Position numbers and translations under genes: made by a program. A DNA stretch of 64,000 bases from Brachybacterium sp. YJGR34. GTDB lineage: Bacteria; Actinomycetota; Actinomycetes; Actinomycetales; Dermabacteraceae. Location: positions 248,001 to 312,000 of the forward strand of contig NZ_PNFB01000001.1 of assembly GCF_003347015.1 (NCBI RefSeq), written 5' to 3'. Positions 6,940-36,512 of the stretch are shown piece after piece (within the stretch, counting starts at the first letter, position 1; every line of letters begins with the position of its first letter). The notes beneath the pieces are model-generated. The model made no database searches and was not told the DNA's origin. It saw only the letters and a program-made list of their open reading frames with translations.

Positions 6940-8125
6940 GGCGCGAGGGCGTCGCCGTCACCGGCGCAGCGGTCGCGTCGGCGCCGCTCCGGGTGACCCA
7001 CAGCAGCGCCGCGAGCGCCTCCGCGACCGCTGCGGACCAGATCACCGCGCCCGGCCCGAGGACGAGCACCCCGGAGGCGGTGACCCCGAGCACCACGGCG
7101 GTGTTCGCGATCCGTCGGCCGAGGAGCCGCCGTCCGCTGAGGCTCCCGCGCCCGACGAACTGCAGGAAGGACGAGACCGCCATGGTGGACAGCCAGGCGC
7201 CGACGGCGACGGCATGCGGGGAGAGGGCCTCCACGATCGTCCCGTCCACCATCGGTGTCCAGGCGGTGAGGAGTCGGAGTCCCGTCGCCACCGCCGCGCC
7301 GGCGAGCAGTCCGATCGCCCCGATCGCGAGCACCTGTCGCACGCCGCCACCGATCGCGCCGCTGATGATGCGCGAGCGGAGCACCTCGACGGCGAGACGG
7401 ACCGGGTAGGTCAGCGAGGAGGCCGCGCGGTGCAGGGCGAGCGGCAGCGCGCCGCTGACCGCGCCCACGAGGAACGGCGTGCCCACGGTCTCGAGCGTCT
7501 TGATGGCCGCCTCCGCCGAGAGCAGGCCGATGTCGCGGCGGTGGTCGCGGAACCAGGCGGCCGCGGCGCGCGGGCTCACGACCACGCCGATCCCTGCGGC
7601 GAGCGCCGCGCACAGGGCGCCGAGGCTCCAGCTCATCAGGGCTGCCGAGGTGGTGAAGCCACCCGTGGCCAGGAAGGCGGCGGCTGCTGAGCCGGCGACC
7701 GCCGCCCCCAGCAGCTCCGACACCCCGGCCCGCCGGATCCGGCCGGAGGCGACCAGGCGATAGGTGAGCCCCGAGCGATACATGGCCAGGGTCGTGGCAG
7801 CTCCCCCGGTGAGCCCGAGGAGCGCGTGGCCGGAGATCGCCAGGACGAGGAGGCCGACCACCGTCCCGCCACCGAGGGCCAGGGCCGTGAGCGCCGCCTG
7901 GAAGGAGTGGAGGTGCTCGCCGGGGACCTCGGAGCGGCGCAGCATCCGCGCCCAGACGTCGCACACGGTCGCGTACTGGAGCGCGAGGAGCGCGGCGAAA
8001 GCCAGGTAGACGACCGCATAGACCGCGTAGTCGCGCACCGGGAGCGCGACCATGGGGATCACCTGGATGGCGAGGGTCGAGGCGATCTGGCCGACGGCGA
8101 CCCAGAGGTACTCCGTGGATCTCAT
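6920..8125 (-). CDS. Polysaccharide flippase-like integral membrane protein
   Basis: A 401-residue protein made almost wholly of hydrophobic helices (about 10-12 membrane spans), with short charged loops and no N-terminal signal. Overall organisation and genomic position fit the MOP superfamily of oligosaccharide flippases that move lipid-linked repeat units across the membrane. Sequence motifs for this family are weak, so the call leans on context. It starts inside the stop codon of the glycosyltransferase (ATGA at 8122-8125), making it the last gene of a three-gene minus-strand operon: polymerase, glycosyltransferase, flippase. Its end overlaps the ATP-grasp gene by 20 bases. Confidence 0.75.
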   Translation of the reverse strand: MRSTEYLWVAVGQIASTLAIQVIPMVALPVRDYAVYAVVYLAFAALLALQYATVCDVWARMLRRSEVPGEHLHSFQAALTALALGGGTVVGLLVLAISGHALLGLTGGAATTLAMYRSGLTYRLVASGRIRRAGVSELLGAAVAGSAAAAFLATGGFTTSAALMSWSLGALCAALAAGIGVVVSPRAAAAWFRDHRRDIGLLSAEAAIKTLETVGTPFLVGAVSGALPLALHRAASSLTYPVRLAVEVLRSRIISGAIGGGVRQVLAIGAIGLLAGAAVATGLRLLTAWTPMVDGTIVEALSPHAVAVGAWLSTMAVSSFLQFVGRGSLSGRRLLGRRIANTAVVLGVTASGVLVLGPGAVIWSAAVAEALAALLWVTRSGADATAAPVTATPSRLTTPAR

Positions 8126-9321
8126 GAGGCCCTCGCCACGCCCGGATCCGGCAGAGAGACGGCGGGGAGATCGATGCCCCGCTGTGCGGCGGCGTCCTGG
8201 TAGAAGGCGAGGTGGAGAGCGCGGACGACGGATCGGTCGAACTCCCGTAGCGCCCTCTGACGCCCGGCCTCGCCCATCGCGGCCAGGCGCAGCGGATCGG
8301 AGAGCAGCTCGATGAGGCCGTTCGCGAGCGCCCGGTCGTCGTGAAGAGGGACGAGCGCCCCGGTGACCCCGTCCACCACGGCGTCGCGCACGCCGGGGAC
8401 GTCGCTGCCCACGACCGGCACCCGCATCGCCGATCCCTCGAGGAGCGTCTGGGGGAAGCCCTCGCGCGCCGAGGGCAGGACCAGCACCGAGAAGGCGGCG
8501 TAGCAGGCGCGGATGTCGCCGCGGAAGCCCAGGAGGTGGACCCGGGGGTCCTGCTCGAGCTGGGACATGGCCCCGGGGTCCACCGGATCGTTCTCCTCGG
8601 TGGAGCCGACCAGGACCAGGTGCGCGTCCGGGCGGGCGGTGCGGACCCGGGCCCAGGCGCGCGCCAGGTCGGCGACTCCCTTGTCCGCGGCGAGCCGGCC
8701 CACGAAGCCGATGACGGGAGCGCCGGGCGCGATGCCCAGCTCGGCGCGCAGGGCGCGGCCCTTCTCGCCGAAGGCCGCGGGATCGAAGGCCTCCAGGTCC
8801 ACGCCGTTGATCGTGCCCGAGCCCAGCACCGCGCCCTTCCCGCGGGCGATGACGTGCTCCTCCTCGGCCAGGGCCAGCACCGAGGGGCTCACGCACAGCA
8901 CGCGGTGCGCGCTCGCCGTCGAGACCCGCTCCGTGAGCTTGAGGATCCGGCGCTGAAGGCCGTGCGTGGTGAGGAAGCGCAGGCCGTGGATCTGATAGAT
9001 GCACAGCGGCACCCCGGCGAGGCGGCCGGCGAGCGTGACCAGAAGGCCCGCCTTCGGCGTGTGGGCGTGGAGGATGTCCGGGCGCTCCCGGCGCAGGATC
9101 GTGACCAGGCGCCGCAGCGTGGCGAGGTCGGCCCTCACGGAGAAGCCCCGGTGCATCGGCACCGCGATCGCCCGGACCTCCTCCGTGGCCGCGAAGCGCT
9201 CGAGCTCCTCGCCGGGGGAGGAGAGCACCACCACCTCGATGCCGTGCGCCGCGAGATGGGCGGGCTGGGTGCGCAGGAAGTTCAGGGTCGACGGGACGGT
9301 GGTGGCATGCAGGAGCTTCAT
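8122..9321 (-). CDS. GT4 family glycosyltransferase
   Basis: 399 residues with two Rossmann-like halves. The N-terminal half has MKLLHATTVPSTLNFL, DILHAHTPKAGLL and IYQIHGLRF. The C-terminal half has the nucleotide-sugar-binding IGFVGRLAADKGV, VHLLGFRGDI and the EX7E motif in REGFPQTLLEGSAM. This is a typical retaining glycosyltransferase B-fold enzyme acting on the cytoplasmic face to extend the lipid-linked repeat unit. It overlaps the polymerase stop codon and the flippase start codon (ATGA at both ends), so the three proteins are made together. The donor sugar is unknown. Confidence 0.93.
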   Translation of the reverse strand: MKLLHATTVPSTLNFLRTQPAHLAAHGIEVVVLSSPGEELERFAATEEVRAIAVPMHRGFSVRADLATLRRLVTILRRERPDILHAHTPKAGLLVTLAGRLAGVPLCIYQIHGLRFLTTHGLQRRILKLTERVSTASAHRVLCVSPSVLALAEEEHVIARGKGAVLGSGTINGVDLEAFDPAAFGEKGRALRAELGIAPGAPVIGFVGRLAADKGVADLARAWARVRTARPDAHLVLVGSTEENDPVDPGAMSQLEQDPRVHLLGFRGDIRACYAAFSVLVLPSAREGFPQTLLEGSAMRVPVVGSDVPGVRDAVVDGVTGALVPLHDDRALANGLIELLSDPLRLAAMGEAGRQRALREFDRSVVRALHLAFYQDAAAQRGIDLPAVSLPDPGVARAS

Positions 9322-10658
9322 GACGGGCCTCCTCGGCGCGTGGTGGACAGCAGATGGGCGGCGGCCGTCATCCCCAGGAGGATCCAGAGCAGACGCGAGT
9401 TGTTCAGCGACAGGCCCATCGAGCCCACCAGCATCACGAGCAGGGCCGTCGAGGCGGCGGCCCACAGGGGGCGCAGCGCAGGGTTCTCGGGACGGCGCAT
9501 CGTCACCCGCGCGGTCCAGACGAGGAACACGAGGGCGAGCGGGAGCCCCCACTCCGCCATCACCTGCAGATACGTGTTGTGCGCGAGCACGGGCACCCCC
9601 GTGATCTCCACGGCGACGTCGAGGTACGTGCCCACCCCCACGCCGAGGATCGGGGAGAACCAGATCAGGGAGAGCGCCGTGGCCCAGGCGCTCTCCCGCT
9701 CCGAGCCGCTGCCGGCGATCGCCGTGTCGAAGCTCGTCAGCAGCGTCGAGGTCCGCTCGAGGGCCGGGAAGCGGGCCACGAGCTCGGACAGGGTGCCGCC
9801 GACCCCCGTCGCCGGCGCGATCAGCAGGACCAGGGCGGAGAGAGCCAGGACGCAGGTCACCGCCAGCAGGTGACGCCCGCGCGAGGACTCCTCCTCGCCG
9901 TGGGGAGAGCGCAGGCCGAACCCGCGCCAGATCACGAGCAGCAGCAGGGCGATCGCCCCGGTCTTGGAGGCTGAGAGCAGGATGCCGATGATCAGGAGGG
10001 TGGAGGCGGCGATCCGCAGCGGAGGGCGGGCCCCTCGGTCGTACCACAGCGCCGCGAGCGCGGCGACGGAGAGGACGGCGAAGTTGTTCGGATCGTTCGT
10101 CAGCCCCTGGAAGCGGAAGCCGCCCAGGAACAGCGTCCCGGCGCCGTGCAGTGCCGGGACCACGATCGAGAGCGCGCCGATCGCGCTGACCACCACCGCG
10201 CCGGCGACAAAGGCCCGCAGCAGCAGCTCGGCACGGCCCAGGCGCACCACCTGCACCCCGAGCAGGAAGCAGAGGAAGGAGACCACCAGCTTGGCGTACT
10301 CCTGTCCCGTCCCGGCCACGGGGAGGGGGACGGACGTCCAGGTGGGCACGAGCAGCGTGGTCACGGCCAGCAGCTGCACGGACAGCAGCAGGAAGAACAC
10401 CAGCGCGCCGACGGGGATCCACAGCCGTCCCCGCACCAGCAGGACGATGATGAGCACCGCCACCACCGGGTCCGCGAGGGAGAGGTTCAGCCCCAGGATC
10501 ACGCTGGAGTGGTTCAGGGCCAGGCCCAGCAGCACCAGCAGCACCAGCGTCAGGAGCTCCGGCAGCTCGATCACGGGGACGGGGCGCCCGGCCGAGAGCT
10601 GATACGTGCCCTGCGGCCGGAGGGCCGCGGCCCGCGGGGCGGGGGGCGCTGCACTCAT
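9318..10658 (-). CDS. Wzy/O-antigen ligase-like polysaccharide polymerase
   Basis: A 446-residue multi-spanning membrane protein. The Wzy_C-type region is recognisable: GGFRFQGLTNDPNNFA, then a long loop with GSGSERESAWATAL, SPILGVGVGTYL and AHNTYLQVMAEWGLPLALV, the His-containing segment typical of O-antigen polymerases and ligases. It probably polymerises or transfers exported repeat units outside the membrane. The start at 10658 is preferred over longer in-frame options because GGAG lies about 10 bases upstream and homology starts there. It is the first gene of the polymerase-glycosyltransferase-flippase operon, divergent from the BY-kinase. Confidence 0.88.
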   Translation of the reverse strand: MSAAPPAPRAAALRPQGTYQLSAGRPVPVIELPELLTLVLLVLLGLALNHSSVILGLNLSLADPVVAVLIIVLLVRGRLWIPVGALVFFLLLSVQLLAVTTLLVPTWTSVPLPVAGTGQEYAKLVVSFLCFLLGVQVVRLGRAELLLRAFVAGAVVVSAIGALSIVVPALHGAGTLFLGGFRFQGLTNDPNNFAVLSVAALAALWYDRGARPPLRIAASTLLIIGILLSASKTGAIALLLLVIWRGFGLRSPHGEEESSRGRHLLAVTCVLALSALVLLIAPATGVGGTLSELVARFPALERTSTLLTSFDTAIAGSGSERESAWATALSLIWFSPILGVGVGTYLDVAVEITGVPVLAHNTYLQVMAEWGLPLALVFLVWTARVTMRRPENPALRPLWAAASTALLVMLVGSMGLSLNNSRLLWILLGMTAAAHLLSTTRRGGPS

Positions 10659-26345: not shown

Positions 26346-26351
26346 TACGAT
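26346..26351 (+). promoter_or_regulatory. -10 element TACGAT for the leaderless histidine kinase
   Basis: TACGAT ends seven bases before the ATG at 26359, and no ribosome site is present. This spacing favours 26359 over the in-frame ATG at 26350, which overlaps the -10. Confidence 0.5.
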
Positions 26352-26358
26352 GCGCTCC

Positions 26359-27942
26359 ATGAGGACGGCAGAGCGCGGCGAGCGTGCGGGCACCGCGCGG
26401 GGGCGCACCGTCCGCACCCGGATGCTCGCCACGATGCTCGCCTTCATGGCCGTGGGTCTGGCCGTCACCGGGGTGCTCACCTATGCGGTGCAGTTCCGCG
26501 CTCTCGAGCAGCGGGTGGACGCCGAGCTCCTCCAGGAGTACGACGAGCTCGACCTCATCGCCCAGAGCACCGAGGACGACGGCTCCCTCACCCACACCAC
26601 CGTCGACGCCCTGCTGCTGCGGGCCACGGAGTCCGCGGCCCCCTCCGACTACGAGGCCGTGGTCGCGATCATCGACGGCGAGAGGGGGTACAAGCCCACC
26701 CAGCAGGACTTCGAGCTGCTCCCCGAGGGCTCCGCGGAGGCCGAGGCGCTGCTCGAGGAGATCCTCGCGGTCCATCAGCCGGGCGGCACGGTCACCGTCA
26801 CGATGGACGCCTACGGCCGGGAGCTGAGGGTCCTGATCGCTTCCGTCGCCGTCGCCGACGACGACACCGAGGGCATCTTCGTGGTCGCCAACGACATCGG
26901 GGCCCAGAAGCGGGACATCTGGCGCAGCGCCCTCACCTTCGCGGTGCTCTCGATGGTCACGCTGCTGGTCGCGGGCTGGGTGGGGTACGTGGTCACGGGG
27001 CGACTGCTGCGCCCGCTCGAGGACCTCCGCGTCGCGACCGCGCAGATCACCGCCGCGGACCTCGAGCGACGGGTGCCGGTCCCCGCCGGGAAGGACGACA
27101 TCGCGGCGCTGGCCCAGAACTTCAACCGCATGCTGGCCCGGATCCAGGAGGGCTTCGCGGAGCAGCGCCGCTTCATGAGCGACGTCGGCCACGAGCTGCG
27201 CACCCCGCTGACCATCGTGCGCGGCACCCTGGAGACCACCGATGTCGAGGACCCCGAGGACGTGCGGGAGTCCCGGGACATCGCGGTCGACGAGCTGGAC
27301 CGGATGGGGCGCGTCGTCGGCGACCTCTCCGAGCTCGCCGCGTCCACCCGCCCCGACTACGTGCGCCGCCGGCCGCTGGAGCTCGAGGAGTTCGCGCGCT
27401 CGGCCTTCGCGCGCCTGACCCACATCGCCGAGCGCGAGTGGATCCTGGACCGCACGGTGGACGCCGTCGCCGACGCCGACGAGCAGCGCCTCACGCAGGC
27501 CGTGGTCCAGCTCGCGGCGAACGCCGTGCGCTACAGCGACGAGGGCAGCGTCATCCGCATGGGCGTGGACCGGGTCTCCGGCCCCGACGGTCCGGAGATC
27601 CACGTGAGCGTCCAGGACGAGGGGGTGGGCATCGCGATCGAGGACCAGCGCCGCATCTTCGAGCGCTTCACCCGCGTCGACGGGGACCGCGGCTCCGGCT
27701 CGGGGCTGGGCCTGCCCATCGTGCTCGCGATCGCCGAGGGCCACGGCGGCGTGGTCCGCGTGCTCTCGGCGCCGGGGCGCGGCTCCACCTTCACGATCGT
27801 GTTCCCGCAGTCCAGCACCGCGTCGTCGGCCGACGACGAGGCCAGCGACGCTGCGGACGATGCCTCCGGGCGCGGCACGGCAGGACATACTGGAGGGGGT
27901 CGGGACGGACACGGCACCAGGACGGGGAGAGGCGACGGATGA
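26359..27942 (+). CDS. Two-component sensor histidine kinase
   Basis: 527 residues. A first membrane helix (MLAFMAVGLAVTGVLTYA), an extracytoplasmic sensor of about 130 residues rich in Asp/Glu, a second helix (AVLSMVTLLVAGWVGYVV), then HAMP, dimerisation, and ATPase domains. The phosphoacceptor is His278 in SDVGHELRTPL. The N-box is QLAANAVRYSD, with G1 DEGVGI, and F/G2 regions FERFTRVDG and GSGLGLPIV. The extracytoplasmic domain matches no sensor family I can name. It overlaps the response-regulator start (ATGA). A secreted acidic protein gene lies just downstream, so the sensed signal may concern the envelope or cations; that is inference. Confidence 0.92.
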   Translation: MRTAERGERAGTARGRTVRTRMLATMLAFMAVGLAVTGVLTYAVQFRALEQRVDAELLQEYDELDLIAQSTEDDGSLTHTTVDALLLRATESAAPSDYEAVVAIIDGERGYKPTQQDFELLPEGSAEAEALLEEILAVHQPGGTVTVTMDAYGRELRVLIASVAVADDDTEGIFVVANDIGAQKRDIWRSALTFAVLSMVTLLVAGWVGYVVTGRLLRPLEDLRVATAQITAADLERRVPVPAGKDDIAALAQNFNRMLARIQEGFAEQRRFMSDVGHELRTPLTIVRGTLETTDVEDPEDVRESRDIAVDELDRMGRVVGDLSELAASTRPDYVRRRPLELEEFARSAFARLTHIAEREWILDRTVDAVADADEQRLTQAVVQLAANAVRYSDEGSVIRMGVDRVSGPDGPEIHVSVQDEGVGIAIEDQRRIFERFTRVDGDRGSGSGLGLPIVLAIAEGHGGVVRVLSAPGRGSTFTIVFPQSSTASSADDEASDAADDASGRGTAGHTGGGRDGHGTRTGRGDG

Positions 27943-28628
27943 GGATCCTCATCGCGGAGGACGAGGCGCGGATCGCGCGGTTCATGGAGCGGGGGCTCAA
28001 GGCCCATGGGTACGCGTCGACCGTCGTCGAGGACGGCATCGGGGCCCTCGACCTGGCCTCGAGCGGCGAGTTCGATCTGCTGATCCTCGACGTGGGGCTG
28101 CCCCGCATGGACGGCTTCCAGGTGCTCCGGACCCTGCGGTCGATGGATGTCCAGATCCCGATCCTCATGGTCACCGCCCGCACGGGCGTGGAGGACACCG
28201 TGCAGGGGCTCGAGGGCGGCGCCAACGACTACATCGCCAAGCCCTTCCGCTTCGAGGAGCTGCTGGCCCGGGTCAAGCTGCGCGCCCGCGAGGCCTCCTC
28301 CGGCGCCGGCACCGTGAGCAGCGACGTGCTCGAGCTGGGCGATCTCTCCCTGGACCTGCGCACCCGCGTGGCGACCTGCACGGGGGAGGAGCAGGAGCGC
28401 CAGGTGGAGCTCTCGGGCCGAGAGTTCACCATGGCCCGCGTGTTCCTGGAGAACCCCGGGCAGATCCTCACCCGGGACCTGCTGCTGTCCAAGGTGTGGG
28501 GCTACGACTACGACGGCGCCTCGAACGTGGTCGACGTCTACGTGGGCTACCTCCGCTCCAAGCTCGGCGCGGCCCGCATCGTCACCGTCCGCGGGGCGGG
28601 CTACAAGATGGTCGATCCGGCCTCCTGA
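27939..28628 (+). CDS. OmpR/PhoB family response regulator
   Basis: 229 residues. Receiver domain: acidic pocket AEDE near residues 6-9, phosphoacceptor Asp51 in LILDVGLPRMDG, Thr in MVTAR, and Lys in IAKPFRF. C-terminal winged helix: LSGREFTMARVFLENPGQILTRD and NVVDVYVGYLRSKLG, then TVRGAGYKM. It is translationally coupled to the kinase. A perfect 22-bp palindrome 25 bases after its stop, upstream of the secreted protein gene, is a plausible binding site. Confidence 0.95.
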   Translation: MRILIAEDEARIARFMERGLKAHGYASTVVEDGIGALDLASSGEFDLLILDVGLPRMDGFQVLRTLRSMDVQIPILMVTARTGVEDTVQGLEGGANDYIAKPFRFEELLARVKLRAREASSGAGTVSSDVLELGDLSLDLRTRVATCTGEEQERQVELSGREFTMARVFLENPGQILTRDLLLSKVWGYDYDGASNVVDVYVGYLRSKLGAARIVTVRGAGYKMVDPAS

Positions 28629-28674: not shown

Positions 28675-28716
28675 TGGTTCACCGGCATCTCATCGCCCCC
28701 GTCGAGGATGCCCGGC

Positions 28717-29358
<642 letters not shown>

Positions 29359-29834: not shown

Positions 29835-31592
29835 TCACTCGTCGTCGGCGTCCTCGCGGACCCGCGCACTGCGACGGGCCAGGGCGCCGGAGCCGACCGT
29901 CACGGACAGGTCCTGGGCGTCCTCCGCGGACGGGGCGGGGAGCACGTGCTCGCGGGCACCGATCCGGGCGGCGAGATCGGCGGAGCCCACCATGACGACC
30001 ACTCCGGGATACGTGTCCAGCACCCGCTCGAGCATCCGTCGGCCCCCGTCGTCGAGGTCTCCCTCGAGGCCGTCCAGGAGCAGCAGCGGTGGGGTGCCGT
30101 ACAGCGCGCGAGCCAGGGCCAGGCGCGCCCGCTCCGAACGGCTCAGCGGATCGCCGCCCCGGCGGAGGGTGGTGCGCGCACCGCGCGGCAGCGTCGTGAG
30201 GTCCAGGCCCACCAGATCCAGGATCTCCTGGTCGTGCGCGGCGTCGAGGTCAGGTCGCCGGTAGTGGAGCGCGCGGGCGACGGTGCCTCGCTCGAAGACG
30301 GTCCCGGCGCTCGCGGAGCCCACCAGCACCCGGCCGCGCTTGGAGGAGACGGCCCGCAGGTTCTCCCCGGCGATCCACAGCGCATCGGGCTCCCGGACGG
30401 ACGGGCCCGGGGAGAGCTCCAGCACGCGCCGCAGCAGCTCCTGGGGGGCCAGCGGATCATCGCAGCTCACGCGCACGCGCTCCCGGGGACGCAGACGCAG
30501 TGGTGCGGCGGGATCGGTGAGCCCGGGAAGGGCCAGATGCACGGCCACGGATCCGTCGGCCACCTCGCGCGGGGCCGGCGCCGCGGCGGAGAGACGGCGA
30601 CGCTCCTTCGCCTCGCGGCGGCGCTGCTGGGCGCCCGCGATCGCGGGGCCCAGCACCATCCGGGCGGAGCGGTAGGTCTGGCGGTACTCGACGATCCGGC
30701 CGATCTCCAGCACCGGGGTGGAGGCGATCCCGGCCACGGCCATCGCGGCCATGATCAGACCCGCATCGAGCCCCAGATAGGTGCCGGTGGCGGCGACCAG
30801 GAGGGTGGTCAGAGTGGAGGCGACGATGCCGCCGGCGCGGATGGTGCCCACGGTCTCGGCGCGGTCCACGGCGATCTCCACCAGGGAGTCGGAGGCCTCG
30901 GCGATGTTGCGCAGCTCGCGCTTGGTGCCGCCGGAGGCGAGGATGCCGTCCGAGGCGGTGACGGTGTCCGCGATGCGGGAGGCGAGCTTGCCGCGGGTGC
31001 GGCGCATCCGGCGCGTCTTGATCAGCGCGGTGCGCGCCCAGAACAGCAGGCACAGCCCCAGCACCAGCAGCGGCAGCGCCATCGCGAGGGCCAGGAAGGG
31101 GCTGAGCACCGCGAGGGTGACCAGGCTGCCGCCGATCAGCGGCACCGCGACGGTCAGCGGGGCGATGCCCTGGGAGACCCAGTTGCGCACCCCGGAGAGG
31201 TCGTTGGTGGTGCGGGCGACGGTCACCCCCAGCGAGGTGGAGTGCCCGGGCGTGAGCGCATCGCCCAGCAGCGTCAGACGCAGCTGGTGGACGTAGTCCT
31301 GGCCCAGCTTCTCGGCGATCACCCGCTCGTGGATCTTCAGCGCCCCGATCGCGAGCGCGGCGAGGACCAGCAGCAGCAGGGCGCGCAGCAGGAGCTCGGA
31401 GGCACCGGCCGGCGCGGCGCGCAGCTGGACCAGGGCCCAGGCGGAGAGCGCGCCCAGGCCGGCCTGTCCGAGGCCCAGCAGGACCAGCAGTCCCAGCCAG
31501 ACCCGCCGCTTCCCGCGCAGCAGCGGGGGGAGCGGCGGGGCGTTCTTCAGCAGACCGTTGGCCAGCTGGACCGGCTCGCGATCACGCGGCAT
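29835..31592 (-). CDS. ABC exporter-type protein with degenerate nucleotide-binding domain
   Basis: 585 residues. Residues about 30-330 are a type I ABC exporter membrane domain: helices such as VWLGLLVLLGLGQAGLGALSAWAL and coupling-helix-like ARTTNDLSGVRNWVSQGIAPL. The C-terminal third has the size and order of an ABC ATPase but lacks its catalytic parts. Where Walker A belongs (residues about 372-380) the sequence is VRVSCDDPL. The signature region is DPLSRSERARLALARAL. Walker B is LLLLDGLEGDLDD, with Gly in place of the catalytic Glu, and the H-loop His is missing (VVVMVGSADLAARI). It therefore probably cannot hydrolyse ATP alone. It overlaps the P-loop gene by 11 bases, suggesting joint production. 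Role unknown. Confidence 0.82.
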   Translation of the reverse strand: MPRDREPVQLANGLLKNAPPLPPLLRGKRRVWLGLLVLLGLGQAGLGALSAWALVQLRAAPAGASELLLRALLLLVLAALAIGALKIHERVIAEKLGQDYVHQLRLTLLGDALTPGHSTSLGVTVARTTNDLSGVRNWVSQGIAPLTVAVPLIGGSLVTLAVLSPFLALAMALPLLVLGLCLLFWARTALIKTRRMRRTRGKLASRIADTVTASDGILASGGTKRELRNIAEASDSLVEIAVDRAETVGTIRAGGIVASTLTTLLVAATGTYLGLDAGLIMAAMAVAGIASTPVLEIGRIVEYRQTYRSARMVLGPAIAGAQQRRREAKERRRLSAAAPAPREVADGSVAVHLALPGLTDPAAPLRLRPRERVRVSCDDPLAPQELLRRVLELSPGPSVREPDALWIAGENLRAVSSKRGRVLVGSASAGTVFERGTVARALHYRRPDLDAAHDQEILDLVGLDLTTLPRGARTTLRRGGDPLSRSERARLALARALYGTPPLLLLDGLEGDLDDGGRRMLERVLDTYPGVVVMVGSADLAARIGAREHVLPAPSAEDAQDLSVTVGSGALARRSARVREDADDE

Positions 31593-32742
31593 CGGTCACC
31601 GACCTCTCCAGCAGAGCGGTCACCAGCTCCCGGGCCACCTCGGCGGTGCCGAGCTCGTCGGTCGGCACGACGGGCACCTCGAGGGCACGGCGGGCCTCGG
31701 CAGTGGCCAGCGGCGAGCTGGTGAGCACCCCGGAGACCGCGGCGGGCTCCCGGCCCAGCGCGCCCAGGGCGCCCACGCCCCCGACGGCCCCGAGGGCGTC
31801 GCCCGCGGCGAACAGGATGCCGTCCACCACGCGGCCGAACTCCGCCTCGCCGAGCAGACGGGAGGTCTCGCCCTGGTAGAGGCCGTCGGCGACCTCGAGC
31901 AGGACCACGTCGGGCCGCTCCGCACCGCCGGCGAGCTCATCGGCCATCGAGAGGAACAGGTCGCGCACCTCCTCGAACCCGACCTGGAAGGTCGAGGAGT
32001 AGCCGAAGTCGGTGAAGTCCAGCACGCGGTGCGCGCCGGCGTCGAGGAAGAGGTTGTAGTCATTGCCCGCGCCGGTGCCGGTGGCCTTGCCGGCGGCCAC
32101 GCGCAGCCCTGCCGCGGCCAGGCCGTGGGCGAGGTGCGCGAGGACCGTGGACTTGCCGGAGTTCATGGAGGTGCCGAGCACGGCGATCACGGGGACCTCG
32201 TGCGCGGGGCGGTGCGCTCGGGCGGTGATCCCGGTGACCACGGGGTGCGCGGCGGCGCGGGCGAGGGTCACGGGGCCCTGCTCGTCGCGGAGCACCCCGA
32301 TCACCTCGAGGGCGGTGGGGGAGGAGACCGCGGCGTGCTGGTCGACCACCCGGGAGGCGAGGCCGCCGGCGGCCGCGAGGTGGAGAGGGCCGAGGTCCTC
32401 GGGGATCATCGCGAGGAACTGGTCGGCGGCGTAGCGGCTGCCGTAGGCGACGACGATCTCGTCGCCCTCGAAGAGGATCTGCCGGCGCGAGACGGGGCTC
32501 TCGAGCCGCTTGTGCTGGCCGATCGAGGTGACCCGCGCCAGCAGCACCTCGCCGGGCTGCGGGGTGTGGTCCTCGGTGATGAGGTCCACGCCCTCGGCGC
32601 GGCGCAGGAAGGCGCCGACGGTGCGGGTCGAGAAGGCGTGCTTGGCCCGCTCGAGGCGGGAGCGGACCTCGCGGCTGCGGGCCGCATCGACGGCGGGGGC
32701 GGGGGCGGCGACGGCGGCGGGTTCGCGGTTCACGATCGTCAT
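31582..32742 (-). CDS. P-loop NTPase resembling DUF1611-type proteins
   Basis: 386 residues. The N-terminal ~170 residues are a domain with GEVLLARVTSIGQHKRLE, GDEIVVAYGSRYAADQF and PEDLGPLHLAAAGGLASRVV. The C-terminal half is a P-loop domain: VIAVLGTSMNSGKSTVLAHLA (Walker A Lys about residue 197), RVAAGKATGTGAGNDYNLFLDAGA, then VVLLEVADGLYQGET. This resembles the ATPase half of DUF1611 proteins and, more distantly, BioD/MobB. DUF1611 includes DgcN, an N-acetyltransferase-type enzyme, but that activity is not implied here. GAGGAG precedes the ATG. It may supply nucleotide binding missing from the overlapping ABC protein; this is inference. Confidence 0.72.
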   Translation of the reverse strand: MTIVNREPAAVAAPAPAVDAARSREVRSRLERAKHAFSTRTVGAFLRRAEGVDLITEDHTPQPGEVLLARVTSIGQHKRLESPVSRRQILFEGDEIVVAYGSRYAADQFLAMIPEDLGPLHLAAAGGLASRVVDQHAAVSSPTALEVIGVLRDEQGPVTLARAAAHPVVTGITARAHRPAHEVPVIAVLGTSMNSGKSTVLAHLAHGLAAAGLRVAAGKATGTGAGNDYNLFLDAGAHRVLDFTDFGYSSTFQVGFEEVRDLFLSMADELAGGAERPDVVLLEVADGLYQGETSRLLGEAEFGRVVDGILFAAGDALGAVGGVGALGALGREPAAVSGVLTSSPLATAEARRALEVPVVPTDELGTAEVARELVTALLERSVTDAA

Positions 32743-32771
32743 CGGGGGACTCCTCGGGAGTGTCTGTCTCG

Positions 32772-32795
32772 GGCAGGACCGGGGCGGTCCGTGCC
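32772..32795. other. Hairpin in the gap between the ferritin-like and P-loop genes
   Basis: GGACC, a five-base loop, and GGTCC, extended by GGCA/TGCC across a one-base bulge. It lies in the only sizeable gap (145 bases) of this minus-strand gene set, and may attenuate or process the transcript between its two halves. Confidence 0.4.
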
Positions 32796-32887
32796 GTACG
32801 AGAAGCAGTGAACTCCGTGGGGATGAAGTCGCGATGAGCCGTCGATGAGGGGATTCTCAGAGAGGTGAACCCCAGGTCAGGGAGGCG

Positions 32888-33676
32888 TCAGGCGGGCACC
32901 CCGAGGCGGGCGAAGGCATTGCGGAAGATGGTCAGGCCGTCCAGCCCGGGCAGCTTCTGGACCCGCTTGTCGAGCTTGTCCAGCTCCCCGGCCTTCCCGG
33001 CGAAGAGGTGGCTCATGACGTGGAGGACCTCGGACTCCTCCATCATCCCGCTGCCCACGGGCTTCCACACCCGGGACATGACCAGCCGCACGATCTTCTG
33101 GGCGGCCTCGGAGGCCTCGAGCCGCTCGCGGCCCTGGGTGGTGTAGAAGGCGACGTGCCGGGTCTCCTGCTGGGCGATGCGCCGCAGCAGCGGCGAGAGC
33201 ACCGGGTGATCGGTCATCGCGGAGAGCCGACGGTAGGCCGCGACCGCGGAGAGCTCGTTGGCGGCGCCCCACACCATGTGCACGGCCACGAAGTCCTTGC
33301 CGGCGAGGTTGGAGAGCACGGACTGCTTGAGCGGGCCGAGCGCCCCCACCCAGCCCAGCTTGAGGCGCTTGGCCTTGATCTCGTCGTAGTCGACGATGAT
33401 CCCGTGCCGGGCCAGCACGGCCGCGAGCGCCTCGCCGTGCCAGAACTCCTCGCGGTTCCACATGGTCATGAACCCGCCGGCGCTCTCCTCGCGATGGGAG
33501 GGGGTGACCAGCAGGTCCCGCAGGAAGCAGGAGGTGTGGTACTCGACGTCGCACATGTAGCGCAGCGAGCGCAGGGTCTGGGCGTCCAGCGGCTGGGACT
33601 CGAAGACGTCGAAGTCGAGGTCCTCGTACTGGACGGGGACCGAGGTCTGCGCGAACTGGTCGAGGTCGAAGGCCAT
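32888..33676 (-). CDS. Ferritin-like di-iron protein, acyl-ACP-desaturase type
   Basis: 262 residues, all alpha. It shows the complete di-iron ligand set in a four-helix bundle: Glu45 (DVEYHTSC), Glu77/His80 (REEFWHGEAL), Glu141 (AANELSAV), and Glu171/His174 (QQETRHVAFY). The E-x-x-H spacing and the WHGE motif resemble acyl-ACP desaturases and related oxygenases more than iron-storage ferritins. It should bind two irons and activate oxygen on an unknown substrate. CAGGAG precedes the ATG. It starts one base after the stop codon of a related protein that lacks the ligands. Confidence 0.8.
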   Translation of the reverse strand: MAFDLDQFAQTSVPVQYEDLDFDVFESQPLDAQTLRSLRYMCDVEYHTSCFLRDLLVTPSHREESAGGFMTMWNREEFWHGEALAAVLARHGIIVDYDEIKAKRLKLGWVGALGPLKQSVLSNLAGKDFVAVHMVWGAANELSAVAAYRRLSAMTDHPVLSPLLRRIAQQETRHVAFYTTQGRERLEASEAAQKIVRLVMSRVWKPVGSGMMEESEVLHVMSHLFAGKAGELDKLDKRVQKLPGLDGLTIFRNAFARLGVPA

Positions 33677-33677
33677 G

Positions 33678-34610
33678 TCACACTCCTGGGCCGGGAAGGG
33701 CGAGCAGGTACGGGTCCGGGAGATCGGGGCCGGGCAGCAGCCTCGTGATCTCGTACCGGGCCCGCCGGAGCGCCGCGCGGTCGCGGACGTCGGCGCCGAG
33801 GACCGCGAGCGCGGGGCGCAGGTCGGCGTCGACGATGCCGCCGCCGTCCAGCGGCGAGTCCAGCGAGAGCAGGAGGCGGGCGGTGGCGGCCTCCCGCCGC
33901 GAGCGCGTGATGCGACCGATCGCCTCGGCGGTGAAGAACCGGGTCGCGGCGTCGTGGCGGGCGACGACGCGGTGCACGGCGTGCGCGGCCTCCCCGTCCA
34001 GCCGGCGGGCGAGGGCGCGGAGCATGATCTGCAGGGAGGCCTCCTGGATCGCCATGCGGGCCATGTGGCCCGCCGCGACGGCCTCGCCGGCCAGACCGAT
34101 CCACAGCGGGGTCACCAGCGGCTGGACGCGATCCACGTGGATCCGGCGCAAGGTGCCCAGGGGGCCGACGCGATGGCGGGGGAGCGGGCGGGACTCGGGG
34201 TGGTCGCCGGTGAGCACGTCCCGCAGGGCGCGGGCCTGCCAGTAGCGGTCCACCATCCAGGTCGCGAGGAAGGCGGTGATGCGGGCCTCGTTGCCGGTGG
34301 GGGTGGCGAGCATCGCCCGCGACTCCGCGAGGGCCGAGGACTCCAGGCGCTGCAGCACGCCGAGGGCGAGGAGCACGTCCTCGGCCGGTTGCTCCTGGGC
34401 GGCCAGGCGCGCGGTGTCCACGGCCAGGCGCGAGCTGCCGCGGCGCACGTAGGCGGCGACGTCGACCTCGGTGCGCAGCACCGGCGTGATCGTCGCGTCG
34501 AGGTGGAGGTGCCCGGCGAAGCGCTCACCGGCCGGGCTCGGGGTCCCGGCGTCCCCGGGTGCGGGGTCGCGAACAGCGGAGCAGTGGCTCCCTGCCAGGT
34601 CCGCGGTCAC
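33678..34610 (-). CDS. Ligand-depleted ferritin-like paralogue
   Basis: 310 residues, GTG start with AGAGGTGAG upstream. It has no obvious family by itself, but its helices align with the next gene product. TWMVDRYWQARALRDVL lines up with MWNREEFWHGEALAAVL, replacing ExxH by DxxQ or similar. RVVARHDAATRFFTAEAIGRI lines up with RIAQQETRHVAFYTTQGRERL, losing Glu and His. AIQEASLQIML keeps the third-helix Glu. It also keeps LESSALAE in helix 1. It therefore looks like a pseudo-enzyme partner that could form a heterodimer with the active di-iron protein. First gene of the minus-strand set. The alignment is by eye. Confidence 0.6.
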   Translation of the reverse strand: MTADLAGSHCSAVRDPAPGDAGTPSPAGERFAGHLHLDATITPVLRTEVDVAAYVRRGSSRLAVDTARLAAQEQPAEDVLLALGVLQRLESSALAESRAMLATPTGNEARITAFLATWMVDRYWQARALRDVLTGDHPESRPLPRHRVGPLGTLRRIHVDRVQPLVTPLWIGLAGEAVAAGHMARMAIQEASLQIMLRALARRLDGEAAHAVHRVVARHDAATRFFTAEAIGRITRSRREAATARLLLSLDSPLDGGGIVDADLRPALAVLGADVRDRAALRRARYEITRLLPGPDLPDPYLLALPGPGV

Positions 34611-34760: not shown

Positions 34761-36512
34761 GTGATCTTCTCCGGCGCCGCCTCGCTCCCGGAGGCTCGGG
34801 GCGCTGCCGACGGGGCCGATCTGCCGGATCTCGACCGGCTCCGCGTGGTGCTGCGCCCGGCGGAGCTGCCCCTTCGCCGCCCCCGCGACGTGCGCGAGGC
34901 CGCCGGCAGGGTGAGGGATCTCGTGCACTCCGGGCGGCACCGCGAGGCGCGAGCGCTCGCCGAGGCGTTCCGCACGCTGCCCGCGGACCCGCCTGATCGC
35001 CTCGCCCTGCTGCGCGCCGCCCTGCACGGCGCGCTCCTGCTCGCCGAGGAGGACGGGGTCCGGCACGACGCGGCGGACATCGTCTCCCTGCTCCGCCGCA
35101 GCGGCCGCCCCGAGCAGGCGGCCGCCGTCGTCGAGGTGCTCCTGGCCGATCGTCCGCCCGCGGGCGGACCGTCGGCGGAGGCGGCGCAGGGACGACGCCG
35201 GGGCCGCGCCCCGCAGGCCGGTCCCGAGATGCTCCTGGTGACCCGTGCCCTCGAGCAGATCTGGCTGCTGGGGAGCGAGGGGAGCGGGCAGGCCGCGACG
35301 GATCTGCGCGGCGTCGTGGCCCGCCTGCGGGCCGCGCTGGCCGCCCTGCCCGCCGTGCGTGGGGCCCTGCTGGTGGACCCGGAGGCGGAGCTGCTGCTGC
35401 GCCTCGCCCAGTCGCTCGAGGGCCTCGGCGACGGCACGGGGGCCACCACGGCGGCCCTGGACGCCCTCGAGCGGATCGAGCAGCAGGGGGCGGAGGCCGG
35501 CGCACCCGGCGAGGACCCGGCCCGGATCGAGCTCGCCGCCCATGCGGTGCTGGCCCGCGCCCTGGGCGCCGAGCATCCGCACCAGGCCGTCCAGCACGCC
35601 CTCGCGGCGCTCGACGCCCTGCCCGGGATCGAGGACCCGCCGCTGAGGGTCGGCCTGATCACCGCGCTGCTGCAGGCCCTGGTGACGGCCGGTGCTCATG
35701 AGCAGGCCAGGTACACCGCGGACCGCCTCGCGTCCCTCCAGCGCACGGTGGAGAGGGACGATCTGCGCACGGCGCCGCTGCTGGCCGTCGCCGCGCAGCG
35801 TGTCCACGCCGGACGCGTCGAGGCCGCGCAGGGCCCGCTCGAGCAGGCTCGCGCGCTCGCGCGTGCCCAGCGCGACCACCGGGCGCTGATGGAGGCCGCA
35901 CGGCTGGGGGCGGGACTGCACGAGCGCACCGGGGACCGCGCCGCCGCGCTCGTGGAGCTGCGGCGCCTGGCCGCGGAGGCTCGGCATCTCGTGGACGACC
36001 TCGCGACCCCCGCCGCCGCGCTGGGACCGCTCATGCGGACCGAGCTGGAGGCGAACGCGCTGGCGATGCGCCGCGCCCTGGACCTGGGCCGGCTGGACAC
36101 CGTGGCGGCGTCCGTGCGGGCGATCGAGCGCCGGACCCGGCGGGACGTCGGCCGCCCCCGCCTGCCCGTGGAGTTCCTCTGGGATCACCGGGTCGATGCC
36201 CGGGTGGGGCTGTTCATCGCCACGGGGGACGCGCTGCTCCGGGGTGTCGAGGGGGTGGACGAGGCGCTGTGGGAGGCGCGTCGCCGGTCCGCGCAGCAGG
36301 CCGTGGAGGAGAGCCCGCCCGGTCACGCGGCGCGGGCCCGCTACTGGACCGCCTATCTCGAGGACCGTCATGCCCATCAGCTCGCCGAGCACGGGCTGGT
36401 CGAGGAGGCGCGGGCGGCCGCGCTGCGGGCCCGCGAGGGGTGGCGGGGCCTGGGGCGCGGAGACGACCTCGCGCGCACTGAGGCCCTGCTGCGGCGTCTC
36501 GCGGCCGGCTGA
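34761..36512 (+). CDS. Alpha-helical (TPR-like) repeat protein of unknown function
   Basis: 583 residues, Ala/Leu/Arg/Glu-rich, predicted almost fully helical, with no signal peptide or membrane helix. Helix pairs repeat at about 35-40 residues, for example RIELAAHAVLARALGAEHPHQAVQHALAAL, then LRVGLITALLQALVTAGAHEQARYTADRL, as in tetratricopeptide proteins. A Pro/Gly/Arg-rich hinge lies near residues 135-155. No catalytic motif was seen. It probably serves as a scaffold or regulator. The GTG start fits leaderless spacing. It is divergent from the ferritin-like gene set and shares its 150-base promoter region. Function unknown. Confidence 0.75.
   Translation: MIFSGAASLPEARGAADGADLPDLDRLRVVLRPAELPLRRPRDVREAAGRVRDLVHSGRHREARALAEAFRTLPADPPDRLALLRAALHGALLLAEEDGVRHDAADIVSLLRRSGRPEQAAAVVEVLLADRPPAGGPSAEAAQGRRRGRAPQAGPEMLLVTRALEQIWLLGSEGSGQAATDLRGVVARLRAALAALPAVRGALLVDPEAELLLRLAQSLEGLGDGTGATTAALDALERIEQQGAEAGAPGEDPARIELAAHAVLARALGAEHPHQAVQHALAALDALPGIEDPPLRVGLITALLQALVTAGAHEQARYTADRLASLQRTVERDDLRTAPLLAVAAQRVHAGRVEAAQGPLEQARALARAQRDHRALMEAARLGAGLHERTGDRAAALVELRRLAAEARHLVDDLATPAAALGPLMRTELEANALAMRRALDLGRLDTVAASVRAIERRTRRDVGRPRLPVEFLWDHRVDARVGLFIATGDALLRGVEGVDEALWEARRRSAQQAVEESPPGHAARARYWTAYLEDRHAHQLAEHGLVEEARAAALRAREGWRGLGRGDDLARTEALLRRLAAG

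Follow-up and report, generated by a model that had tools for sequence, protein, structure and literature searches.

In animals and Myxococcus, ether lipids and plasmalogens are made aerobically by a fatty acyl-CoA reductase (FAR), an acyltransferase of the GNPAT/AGPAT type, AGPS, an alkyl-DHAP reductase and the desaturase CarF/PEDS1. In some heteromeric di-iron enzymes the second subunit is a dead paralogue of the first, as in the bacterial multicomponent monooxygenases, where a catalytic alpha subunit is accompanied by a ligand-less beta paralogue, and type I ABC exporters carry a transmembrane domain together with a nucleotide-binding domain (NBD). Four adjacent genes of Brachybacterium sp. 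YJGR34 resemble parts of these systems and depart from each of them. They lie on the minus strand of a 64,000-nucleotide stretch of contig NZ_PNFB01000001.1 (positions 248,001 to 312,000; hereafter the window), in a genome of 3.99 Mb, and encode a ligand-poor twin of a di-iron protein, the di-iron protein itself, a P-loop protein and a degenerate ABC exporter subunit. The original prediction joined all four in one pathway. Comparison with related genomes indicates instead that they are two separate pairs placed side by side and not one system, since each pair occurs alone and the two do not co-occur above chance. We think it rather likely that pair 1 is a di-iron heteromer that tailors ether lipids and that pair 2 is an independent, nucleotide-switched module of a dead ABC subunit and its P-loop partner.

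33678..34610, minus strand: twin, a ligand-poor paralogue of the di-iron protein, 310 amino acids (aa); first gene of pair 1, with no match found in Pfam
32888..33676, minus strand: ferritin-like di-iron protein, 262 aa; second gene of pair 1 and candidate ether-lipid oxygenase or desaturase
32743..32887, minus strand: 145-base spacer separating the pairs (112-481 bases in 12 relatives)
31582..32742, minus strand: P-loop protein, 386 aa; first gene of pair 2, with a strand-rich N-terminal part and a SIMIBI/BioD-like part
29835..31592, minus strand: type I ABC exporter half-subunit with a degenerate NBD, 585 aa; second gene of pair 2

Distribution of the two gene pairs

The four genes are as tightly packed as was first described: one base separates the twin and di-iron genes, 145 bases lie between the di-iron and P-loop genes, and the P-loop and ABC genes overlap by 11 bases. 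Genes were called with a simple codon-bias script, and some open reading frames (ORFs) were mis-called (e.g. in loci L110, L146 and L163). We surveyed 47 genomes of the Dermabacteraceae, 38 of them Brachybacterium, and fetched and mapped 36 stretches around the target genes. The di-iron gene is present in 33 of the 47 genomes, all of them Brachybacterium (33/38), and the P-loop gene in 15, comprising 14 of the 38 Brachybacterium genomes and one Helcobacillus (G039). Within each pair the genes keep together. The twin adjoins the di-iron gene in all 34 fetched loci, with the one-base gap in 22, and the P-loop and ABC genes are found together in 13 of 14 fetched P-loop loci, with the 11-base overlap in 8; the exception is B. 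squillarum, in which the P-loop gene is broken and the ABC match absent. One further locus (L085) has an ABC match without a P-loop gene.

Between the pairs no such association was found. Both genes occur in 13 Brachybacterium genomes, the P-loop gene alone in 1, the di-iron gene alone in 20 and neither in 4 (p 0.38). Among 396 genomes of Actinomycetota, the P-loop profile matched 15 at E 1e-8, of which 7, our genome included, span most of the protein and the rest mainly its P-loop half; the di-iron profile matched 23 at E 1e-5, and the overlap is our own genome only, with 0.87 expected. P-loop/ABC pairs without di-iron genes are found in Actinomycetota, Cyanobacteria and Pseudomonadota. The comparison that the original prediction had proposed, whether the four families adjoin one another more often than chance, thus gave no excess in either sample, and their homologues are scattered, each pair being found without the other. 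Because the overlap in the phylum is limited to our genome and the p value within the genus is 0.38, the four-gene neighbourhood looks like one inherited locus rather than a repeatedly chosen partnership.

These counts also bear on the pathway as first proposed, in which the di-iron protein and its twin would make a modified lipid or small molecule, the dead ABC subunit would export it and the P-loop protein would be the engine. In the 13 Brachybacterium genomes with both genes, these are neighbours on the same strand and in the same order (in G033 the P-loop gene is broken), and a simple consensus scan of the spacer at 32743-32887 found no promoter- or terminator-like site. However, this adjacency can be put down to one shared locus and not to repeated assembly, the spacer varies in length among relatives, and each pair exists without the other, as in loci L089 and L090, which have P-loop/ABC without twin/di-iron, and in the 20 Brachybacterium genomes that have twin/di-iron without the P-loop gene. 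The older neighbour of pair 2, moreover, appears to be a two-component system. We therefore consider a single four-gene system very improbable, and export of a modified lipid by the ABC subunit has no comparative support, because the pairs occur separately and do not co-occur above chance.

Among the top matches listed, neither pair is described in open-licence literature. Two other possible functions were considered and rejected. For anti-phage defence, the PADLOC models gave a sole match to the four proteins, a weak one of NBD type between the ABC subunit and mad3 (24.5 bits over 65 residues), and for export of a peptide or of a ribosomally synthesised and post-translationally modified peptide the family matches were weak.

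The di-iron pair and its probable ether-lipid context

The di-iron protein satisfies the pattern E...EExxH...E...ExxH of the ferritin-like di-iron superfamily. As had been claimed for it, the ligand set is complete: E45, E77, H80, E141, E171 and H174 are invariant in 21 of 21 diverse family members and in 17 of 17 sequences of a second alignment. It shares this four-helix type of ligand set with the acyl-ACP desaturases and with the R2-like ligand-binding oxidases, and among solved chains the nearest natural matches of its profile are DesA2 (1za0, E 1.3e-6) and then R2lox (0.0024), the top match being a designed helix bundle. Unlike the acyl-ACP desaturases, it scores below the Pfam cut-off for FA_desaturase_2 (E 6e-4, 19.2 bits against a cut-off of 22.7), has a ligand-poor paralogue as its partner and occurs in the context of lipid clusters. 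FA_desaturase_2 matches 19 of the 21 family members at E up to 0.1.

That most ligands are missing from the protein of the neighbouring gene was also borne out. The profile of each family matches the other, which makes the twin a paralogue of the di-iron protein, and E77, H80, E171 and H174 are lost in all 18 aligned Brachybacterium twins; the E141 column depends on the alignment, being Glu in one and His in another. In the second copies from 12 loci, H80 and E171 are missing throughout, E77 is missing in 11 and H174 is still present in 9. The Brachybacterium twin appears to be the same paralogue as that in the ether-lipid clusters described below, diverged further. The twin is probably a structural partner in a heteromer, in which the di-iron protein would bind two irons, activate O2 and oxidise a lipid chain; ligands, paralogy, adjacency and the association in clusters and genomes are observed, and from them we infer the heteromer, its substrate and its reaction. 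An adjacent catalytic and non-catalytic paralogue recall the multicomponent monooxygenases. Unlike these, pair 1 has no Pfam match to their family and no reductase or effector gene, and its heteromer is putative.

Evidence about the substrate comes from the genomic company of the di-iron family, which is present in 41 of 394 genomes sampled from the class. FAR (E 1e-80) was counted in what we take, from identical genome handles, to be the same sample. It is present in 35 of the 41 di-iron genomes and in 75 of the 394 overall (p 5e-23), and by genus in 13 of 15 di-iron genera against 27 of 137 (p 3e-9), with kinship ignored in both tests. On a Streptomyces plasmid, a diverged paralogue, a FAR gene with a HAD domain and the di-iron gene occur together, and genes for a short-chain dehydrogenase/reductase (SDR), a PlsC-type acyltransferase and AGPS lie nearby. 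We fetched 20 further di-iron loci from the class sample in a non-random manner, taking nine genomes with two matches first. Paralogue, FAR and di-iron gene are together in 8 of these 20 loci, which with the Streptomyces plasmid makes 9, and in the 8 the FAR gene lies between the two paralogues in 7 and beside them in one (L292). All nine clusters contain the SDR gene, and eight contain the acyltransferase and AGPS genes; the ninth (L285) is near a contig end. The assignment of AGPS is well founded, solved AGPS enzymes being matched at E 8e-104 and 6e-79, and both FAR proteins that were scanned contain FAR and HAD domains.

According to PMC9131029, FAR, the acyltransferase, AGPS and SDR are enzymes of the aerobic ether-lipid pathway. 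This gene set is present in our own genome on contig C39 (locus L304, 239000-256000), where it would make the substrate of pair 1. FAR was found in 38 of 38 Brachybacterium genomes, and in the five inspected, our own included, it stands together with SDR, acyltransferase and AGPS, with the di-iron gene not there. A TGA flagged inside the Brachybacterium FAR matches is taken to be the normal stop, because in our genome the match (L304, 7285-9537) overruns the stop of the called ORF (7291-9582) by two codons. FAR persists in the five Brachybacterium genomes that lack the di-iron gene, which would make the di-iron reaction one of tailoring.

The FAR clusters and the genome-wide association with FAR favour an oxygen-dependent lipid modification, as the original prediction had offered for all four genes and as now holds up as the best reading of pair 1. 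Ether lipids, or intermediates in their synthesis, are the most likely substrate, and the likeliest reaction would be a desaturation, possibly of the vinyl-ether (plasmalogen) type. The Actinomycetota clusters resemble the pathway of animals and Myxococcus in having FAR, acyltransferase, AGPS and SDR and an associated metal enzyme of the O2-using type. They differ from it in that this enzyme is not CarF but one of the ferritin-like di-iron proteins and comes with a dead paralogue. The Pfam family of CarF/PEDS1, Lipid_desat (PF10520), did not match the di-iron protein and gave no match in any of the 38 Brachybacterium genomes, the control genomes giving none either. According to PMC9131029, true CarF homologues belong to one myxobacterial suborder and, beyond the myxobacteria, to Leptospira only. 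The narrower proposal that the di-iron/twin pair is a CarF-independent plasmalogen desaturase of aerobic Actinomycetota we consider unlikely. If pair 1 does tailor ether lipids, aerobic Actinomycetota would have an O2-dependent step of their own in ether-lipid metabolism, and its product could be sought in concrete terms.

Several observations weigh against ether lipids as the substrate. Six of the 41 di-iron genomes have no FAR, and three of these (G271, G314 and G770) contain the paralogue/di-iron pair; conversely, 40 of the 75 FAR genomes have no di-iron gene. FAR is not nearby in 12 of the 20 fetched di-iron loci despite the preference given to genomes with two matches, and neither FAR nor AGPS was found in any of 20 loci from the phylum sample (L146-L165), as far as the fetched sequence reaches, which in several cases is not far. 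The solo di-iron genes among these (L148-L165) had no neighbour in view that would name a function. In Brachybacterium itself the ether-lipid genes are not adjacent to the twin/di-iron pair, and the association tests, as noted, do not take kinship into account. An AlphaFold2 model of the di-iron protein made from six close sequences was poor (pLDDT 46). Some Actinobacteria have an anaerobic plsAR route to plasmalogens (PMC9702350), so that plasmalogens alone would not be proof of a di-iron enzyme.

It is also possible, if doubtful, that the di-iron pair acts not on the ether bond but on fatty aldehydes or acyl chains, as an enzyme of the aldehyde-deformylating or acyl-desaturase type fed by FAR. 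The combination of a FAR with a ferritin-like di-iron protein resembles the cyanobacterial alkane pathway, which counts for this explanation, as do DesA2 and R2lox as nearest natural solved chains and the matches of most members to FA_desaturase_2. However, FAR clusters here with AGPS, acyltransferase and SDR, so that ether lipids are the simplest destination for its alcohol, and the di-iron protein reaches no family cut-off. Ether-lipid tailoring thus remains our preferred reading of pair 1.

The P-loop protein and its degenerate ABC partner

The third gene does encode a P-loop protein, as predicted, with a loop (GTSMNSGKST) of BioD type. Its AlphaFold2 model is confident (mean pLDDT 93), and Foldseek matched it to SRP GTPases, BioD, HypB and MinD at E about 1e-5. 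Since TM-scores to the query are at most 0.36 among the 50 matches listed, only part of the protein is matched. From its loop and the modelled fold of its P-loop half, we assign the protein to the SIMIBI class. It shares the loop GTxxxxGK[ST] and the fold of this half with DUF1611, MobB and BioD, and differs from them in its unmatched N-terminal half, in scores below the curated Pfam cut-offs (CbiA, and DUF1611 with 20.3 bits against 25) and in its recurrent ABC partner. At least 465 relatives were confirmed, in Actinomycetota, Cyanobacteria (Chlorogloeopsis, Nostoc) and Pseudomonadota; locus analysis was confined to the 80 closest to the window protein. Of 82 P-loop ORFs, 81 retain the loop, L220 being the exception, and those on Rhodobacterales plasmids retain it too.

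An ABC exporter profile match stands beside the P-loop gene in 73 of these 80 best loci, so the idea that the P-loop protein is the partner of the ABC subunit survives as a recurrent pairing. The window subunit matches the Pfam family ABC_membrane above the cut-off (E 1.9e-10) and ABC_tran below it; the CydC, CydD and MsbA models also match below their cut-offs. Alignment with intact relatives confirmed that it has no working ATP site, as had been noted from the sequence: it lacks Walker A, the Gly of the signature motif, the catalytic Glu and the His of the H-loop, and keeps the Asp of Walker B. It is therefore like the type I exporters in having a transmembrane domain and a remnant NBD, and unlike them in that Walker A and almost all the remaining motifs are gone and that a SIMIBI P-loop protein is its partner.

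Motifs were scored in 76 alignable ABC subunits, namely 68 of the 73 together with those of the window, L059, L077, L089, L107, L108, L109 and L111, and are nearly bimodal. Fifteen subunits keep Walker A and the signature, and 13 of these also keep the catalytic Glu and the H-loop His; in L109 and L111 there is a Gln in place of the catalytic Glu and the H-loop His is absent. In the other 61, Walker A is gone together with almost all the remaining ATP motifs; L196 still has LSSGQ, L205 has TH, and L181, L184, L185 and L203 have a Glu following the Walker B position, while the subunit in L225 is split between frames. The ratio of 61 to 15 is not a natural frequency, because the 80 loci were chosen for their closeness to the window protein. 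On Rhodobacterales plasmids, Paracoccus albus, P. liaowanqingii and Tritonibacter have dead subunits and Sulfitobacter has an intact one, and because the intact Sulfitobacter is sister to the dead Paracoccus and Tritonibacter (clade support 1.0 in both trees), the phylogeny indicates a second loss there. Within Brachybacterium, the dead NBD has an omega of 0.30-0.44, the other parts 0.18-0.57 (10 comparisons of the window with relatives, by a simple Nei-Gojobori script), which argues that the loss of motifs is not recent decay.

Pair 2 would then be an old partnership between a SIMIBI-class P-loop protein and an ABC exporter half-subunit, whose own site is predicted to be unable to hydrolyse ATP. 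Because the membrane domain, the NBD remnant and the P-loop partner stay conserved even though the site was lost, the membrane module is probably no longer an exporter that powers itself and has the P-loop protein as its nucleotide-dependent partner or switch. It would be a further step to suppose that an exporter which gave up its ATPase at least twice has its membrane domain driven or gated in trans by a dedicated SRP/BioD-type NTPase; we consider this quite improbable, and to our knowledge it is not a known way of energising an ABC fold. If the pair does work together, it raises the question of how a motorless transporter fold is put to use, and the intact pair of Sulfitobacter and the dead pairs of Paracoccus and Tritonibacter offer the natural comparison.

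Against a switch-like partnership stand the 7 of the 80 best P-loop loci that have no ABC match, only 2 of which are at or near a contig end, and the distant P-loop relatives of the phylum sample (L112-L118), which have none either. The 61 dead subunits, an actinobacterial group, form one clade in all four trees with weak to moderate support (0.28-0.86). The physical interaction of the two proteins and their role are likewise things that we infer, from the observed pairing, motif loss and selection.

Degenerate sites occur in known type I exporters (PMC7756269), and the dead subunit could be joined in a heterodimeric exporter by an active half, or served by an ATPase, encoded elsewhere. In 14 loci of Micrococcaceae type an ABC-ATPase-like gene, identified by eye, lies about 3 kb downstream on the opposite strand, which would be in keeping with this. 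However, nearly every motif is gone here and not just one composite site, the intact relatives are also single genes, and no second half-exporter recurs beside the pair at the loci, our own genome not having been searched for a partner. We regard a heterodimer as rather unlikely. The same region of loci L180-L210, about 3 kb downstream of the ABC gene, contains that ABC-ATPase-like gene in 14 loci and a gene for a large membrane protein in 16.

A biosynthetic role can also be envisaged, in which the P-loop protein is a BioD/CobQ-like ligase or kinase, the intact ancestral ABC subunit exported its product and the dead one is a scaffold only. The P-loop fold is nearest to P-loop proteins of SRP type and BioD type, one record labels a relative as dethiobiotin synthase, and in Pseudomonadota the pair repeatedly has an alpha/beta hydrolase gene as a neighbour (5 of 80 loci; also L246, L247 and L253). 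A distant relative lies in a Priestia plasmid operon with genes of the ATP-grasp, TPP-enzyme and PEP-mutase families; it is 26-30% identical to other family members and was not found with the window protein. Among the clusters listed, however, no further biosynthetic gene recurs beyond related genera, and the strict pairing fits a protein partner equally well or better. We give such an enzyme a modest chance at most, and continue to favour the nucleotide-dependent partner or switch.

Neighbouring genes and other observations

At lower window coordinates, three plus-strand genes precede the ABC gene:

26350..27942, plus strand: sensor histidine kinase (Pfam HAMP, HisKA, HATPase_c)
27939..28628, plus strand: OmpR-type response regulator, the genome's best match to the Chlorogloeopsis regulator beside P-loop/ABC
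28708..29358, plus strand: Ser/Gly-rich protein with a hydrophobic N-terminus and a poly-Asp tail; no family match, and uncertain membership in the neighbourhood of pair 2

The two-component system (26350-28628) converges on the ABC gene. Its relatives are found beside P-loop/ABC genes in Chlorogloeopsis, two Nostoc, Kineococcus, Helcobacillus and one further actinomycete, with regulator identities of 54-69%. In our whole genome, the best match to the Chlorogloeopsis regulator beside P-loop/ABC is the window regulator (56% against 43% for the next), and the best match to the Chlorogloeopsis kinase is the window kinase (E 1e-71 against 1e-36), which argues that the two systems are orthologous. 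Pair 2 therefore probably once adjoined an OmpR-type two-component system. The connection may be historical, because the kinase gene is kept in Brachybacterium loci that have no P-loop/ABC genes and most dead-ABC loci have no orthologous system within the stretches fetched, both of which count against a working link with pair 2. A two-component system near the pair in Micrococcaceae was considered as the same system and rejected, its regulator being 36-39% identical to that of the window. A regulator and kinase also adjoin the P-loop/ABC pair in L247.

The Ser/Gly-rich protein (28708-29358) ends in CEWDDDGWECDDDDDDDDDGDDDDDD, sits between the response regulator and the ABC gene and is probably secreted or anchored. 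A strict scan found poly-Asp stretches in 19 of the 36 fetched loci of the family and in the P-loop/ABC loci L108, L227, L246, L247 and L253. In Paracoccus, P-loop/ABC is accompanied by an alpha/beta hydrolase and an S8 peptidase; S8 peptidases with an Asp-rich N-terminal part lie near P-loop/ABC on Rhodobacterales plasmids (L247, 2110-3633; L253, 12962-14437), and the nearest NCBIfam model to them is mycosin, below its cut-off.

On the other side of the four genes, a divergent gene at 34761-36512 on the plus strand, whose 583-aa protein has no Pfam match, adjoins the twin gene in many Brachybacterium loci. Among the actinomycetote loci with an intact Walker A motif, L107, L109 and L111 have a downstream gene in common, with an HTTM domain in L109, the one scanned, and L107 and L111 share a second small gene. 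The Priestia megaterium operon (L250, plasmid NZ_CP085446.1) contains, besides the P-loop relative, ATP-grasp, TPP-dependent, M20, LLM-oxidoreductase and PEP-mutase-family genes and looks like a phosphonate-type natural-product cluster.

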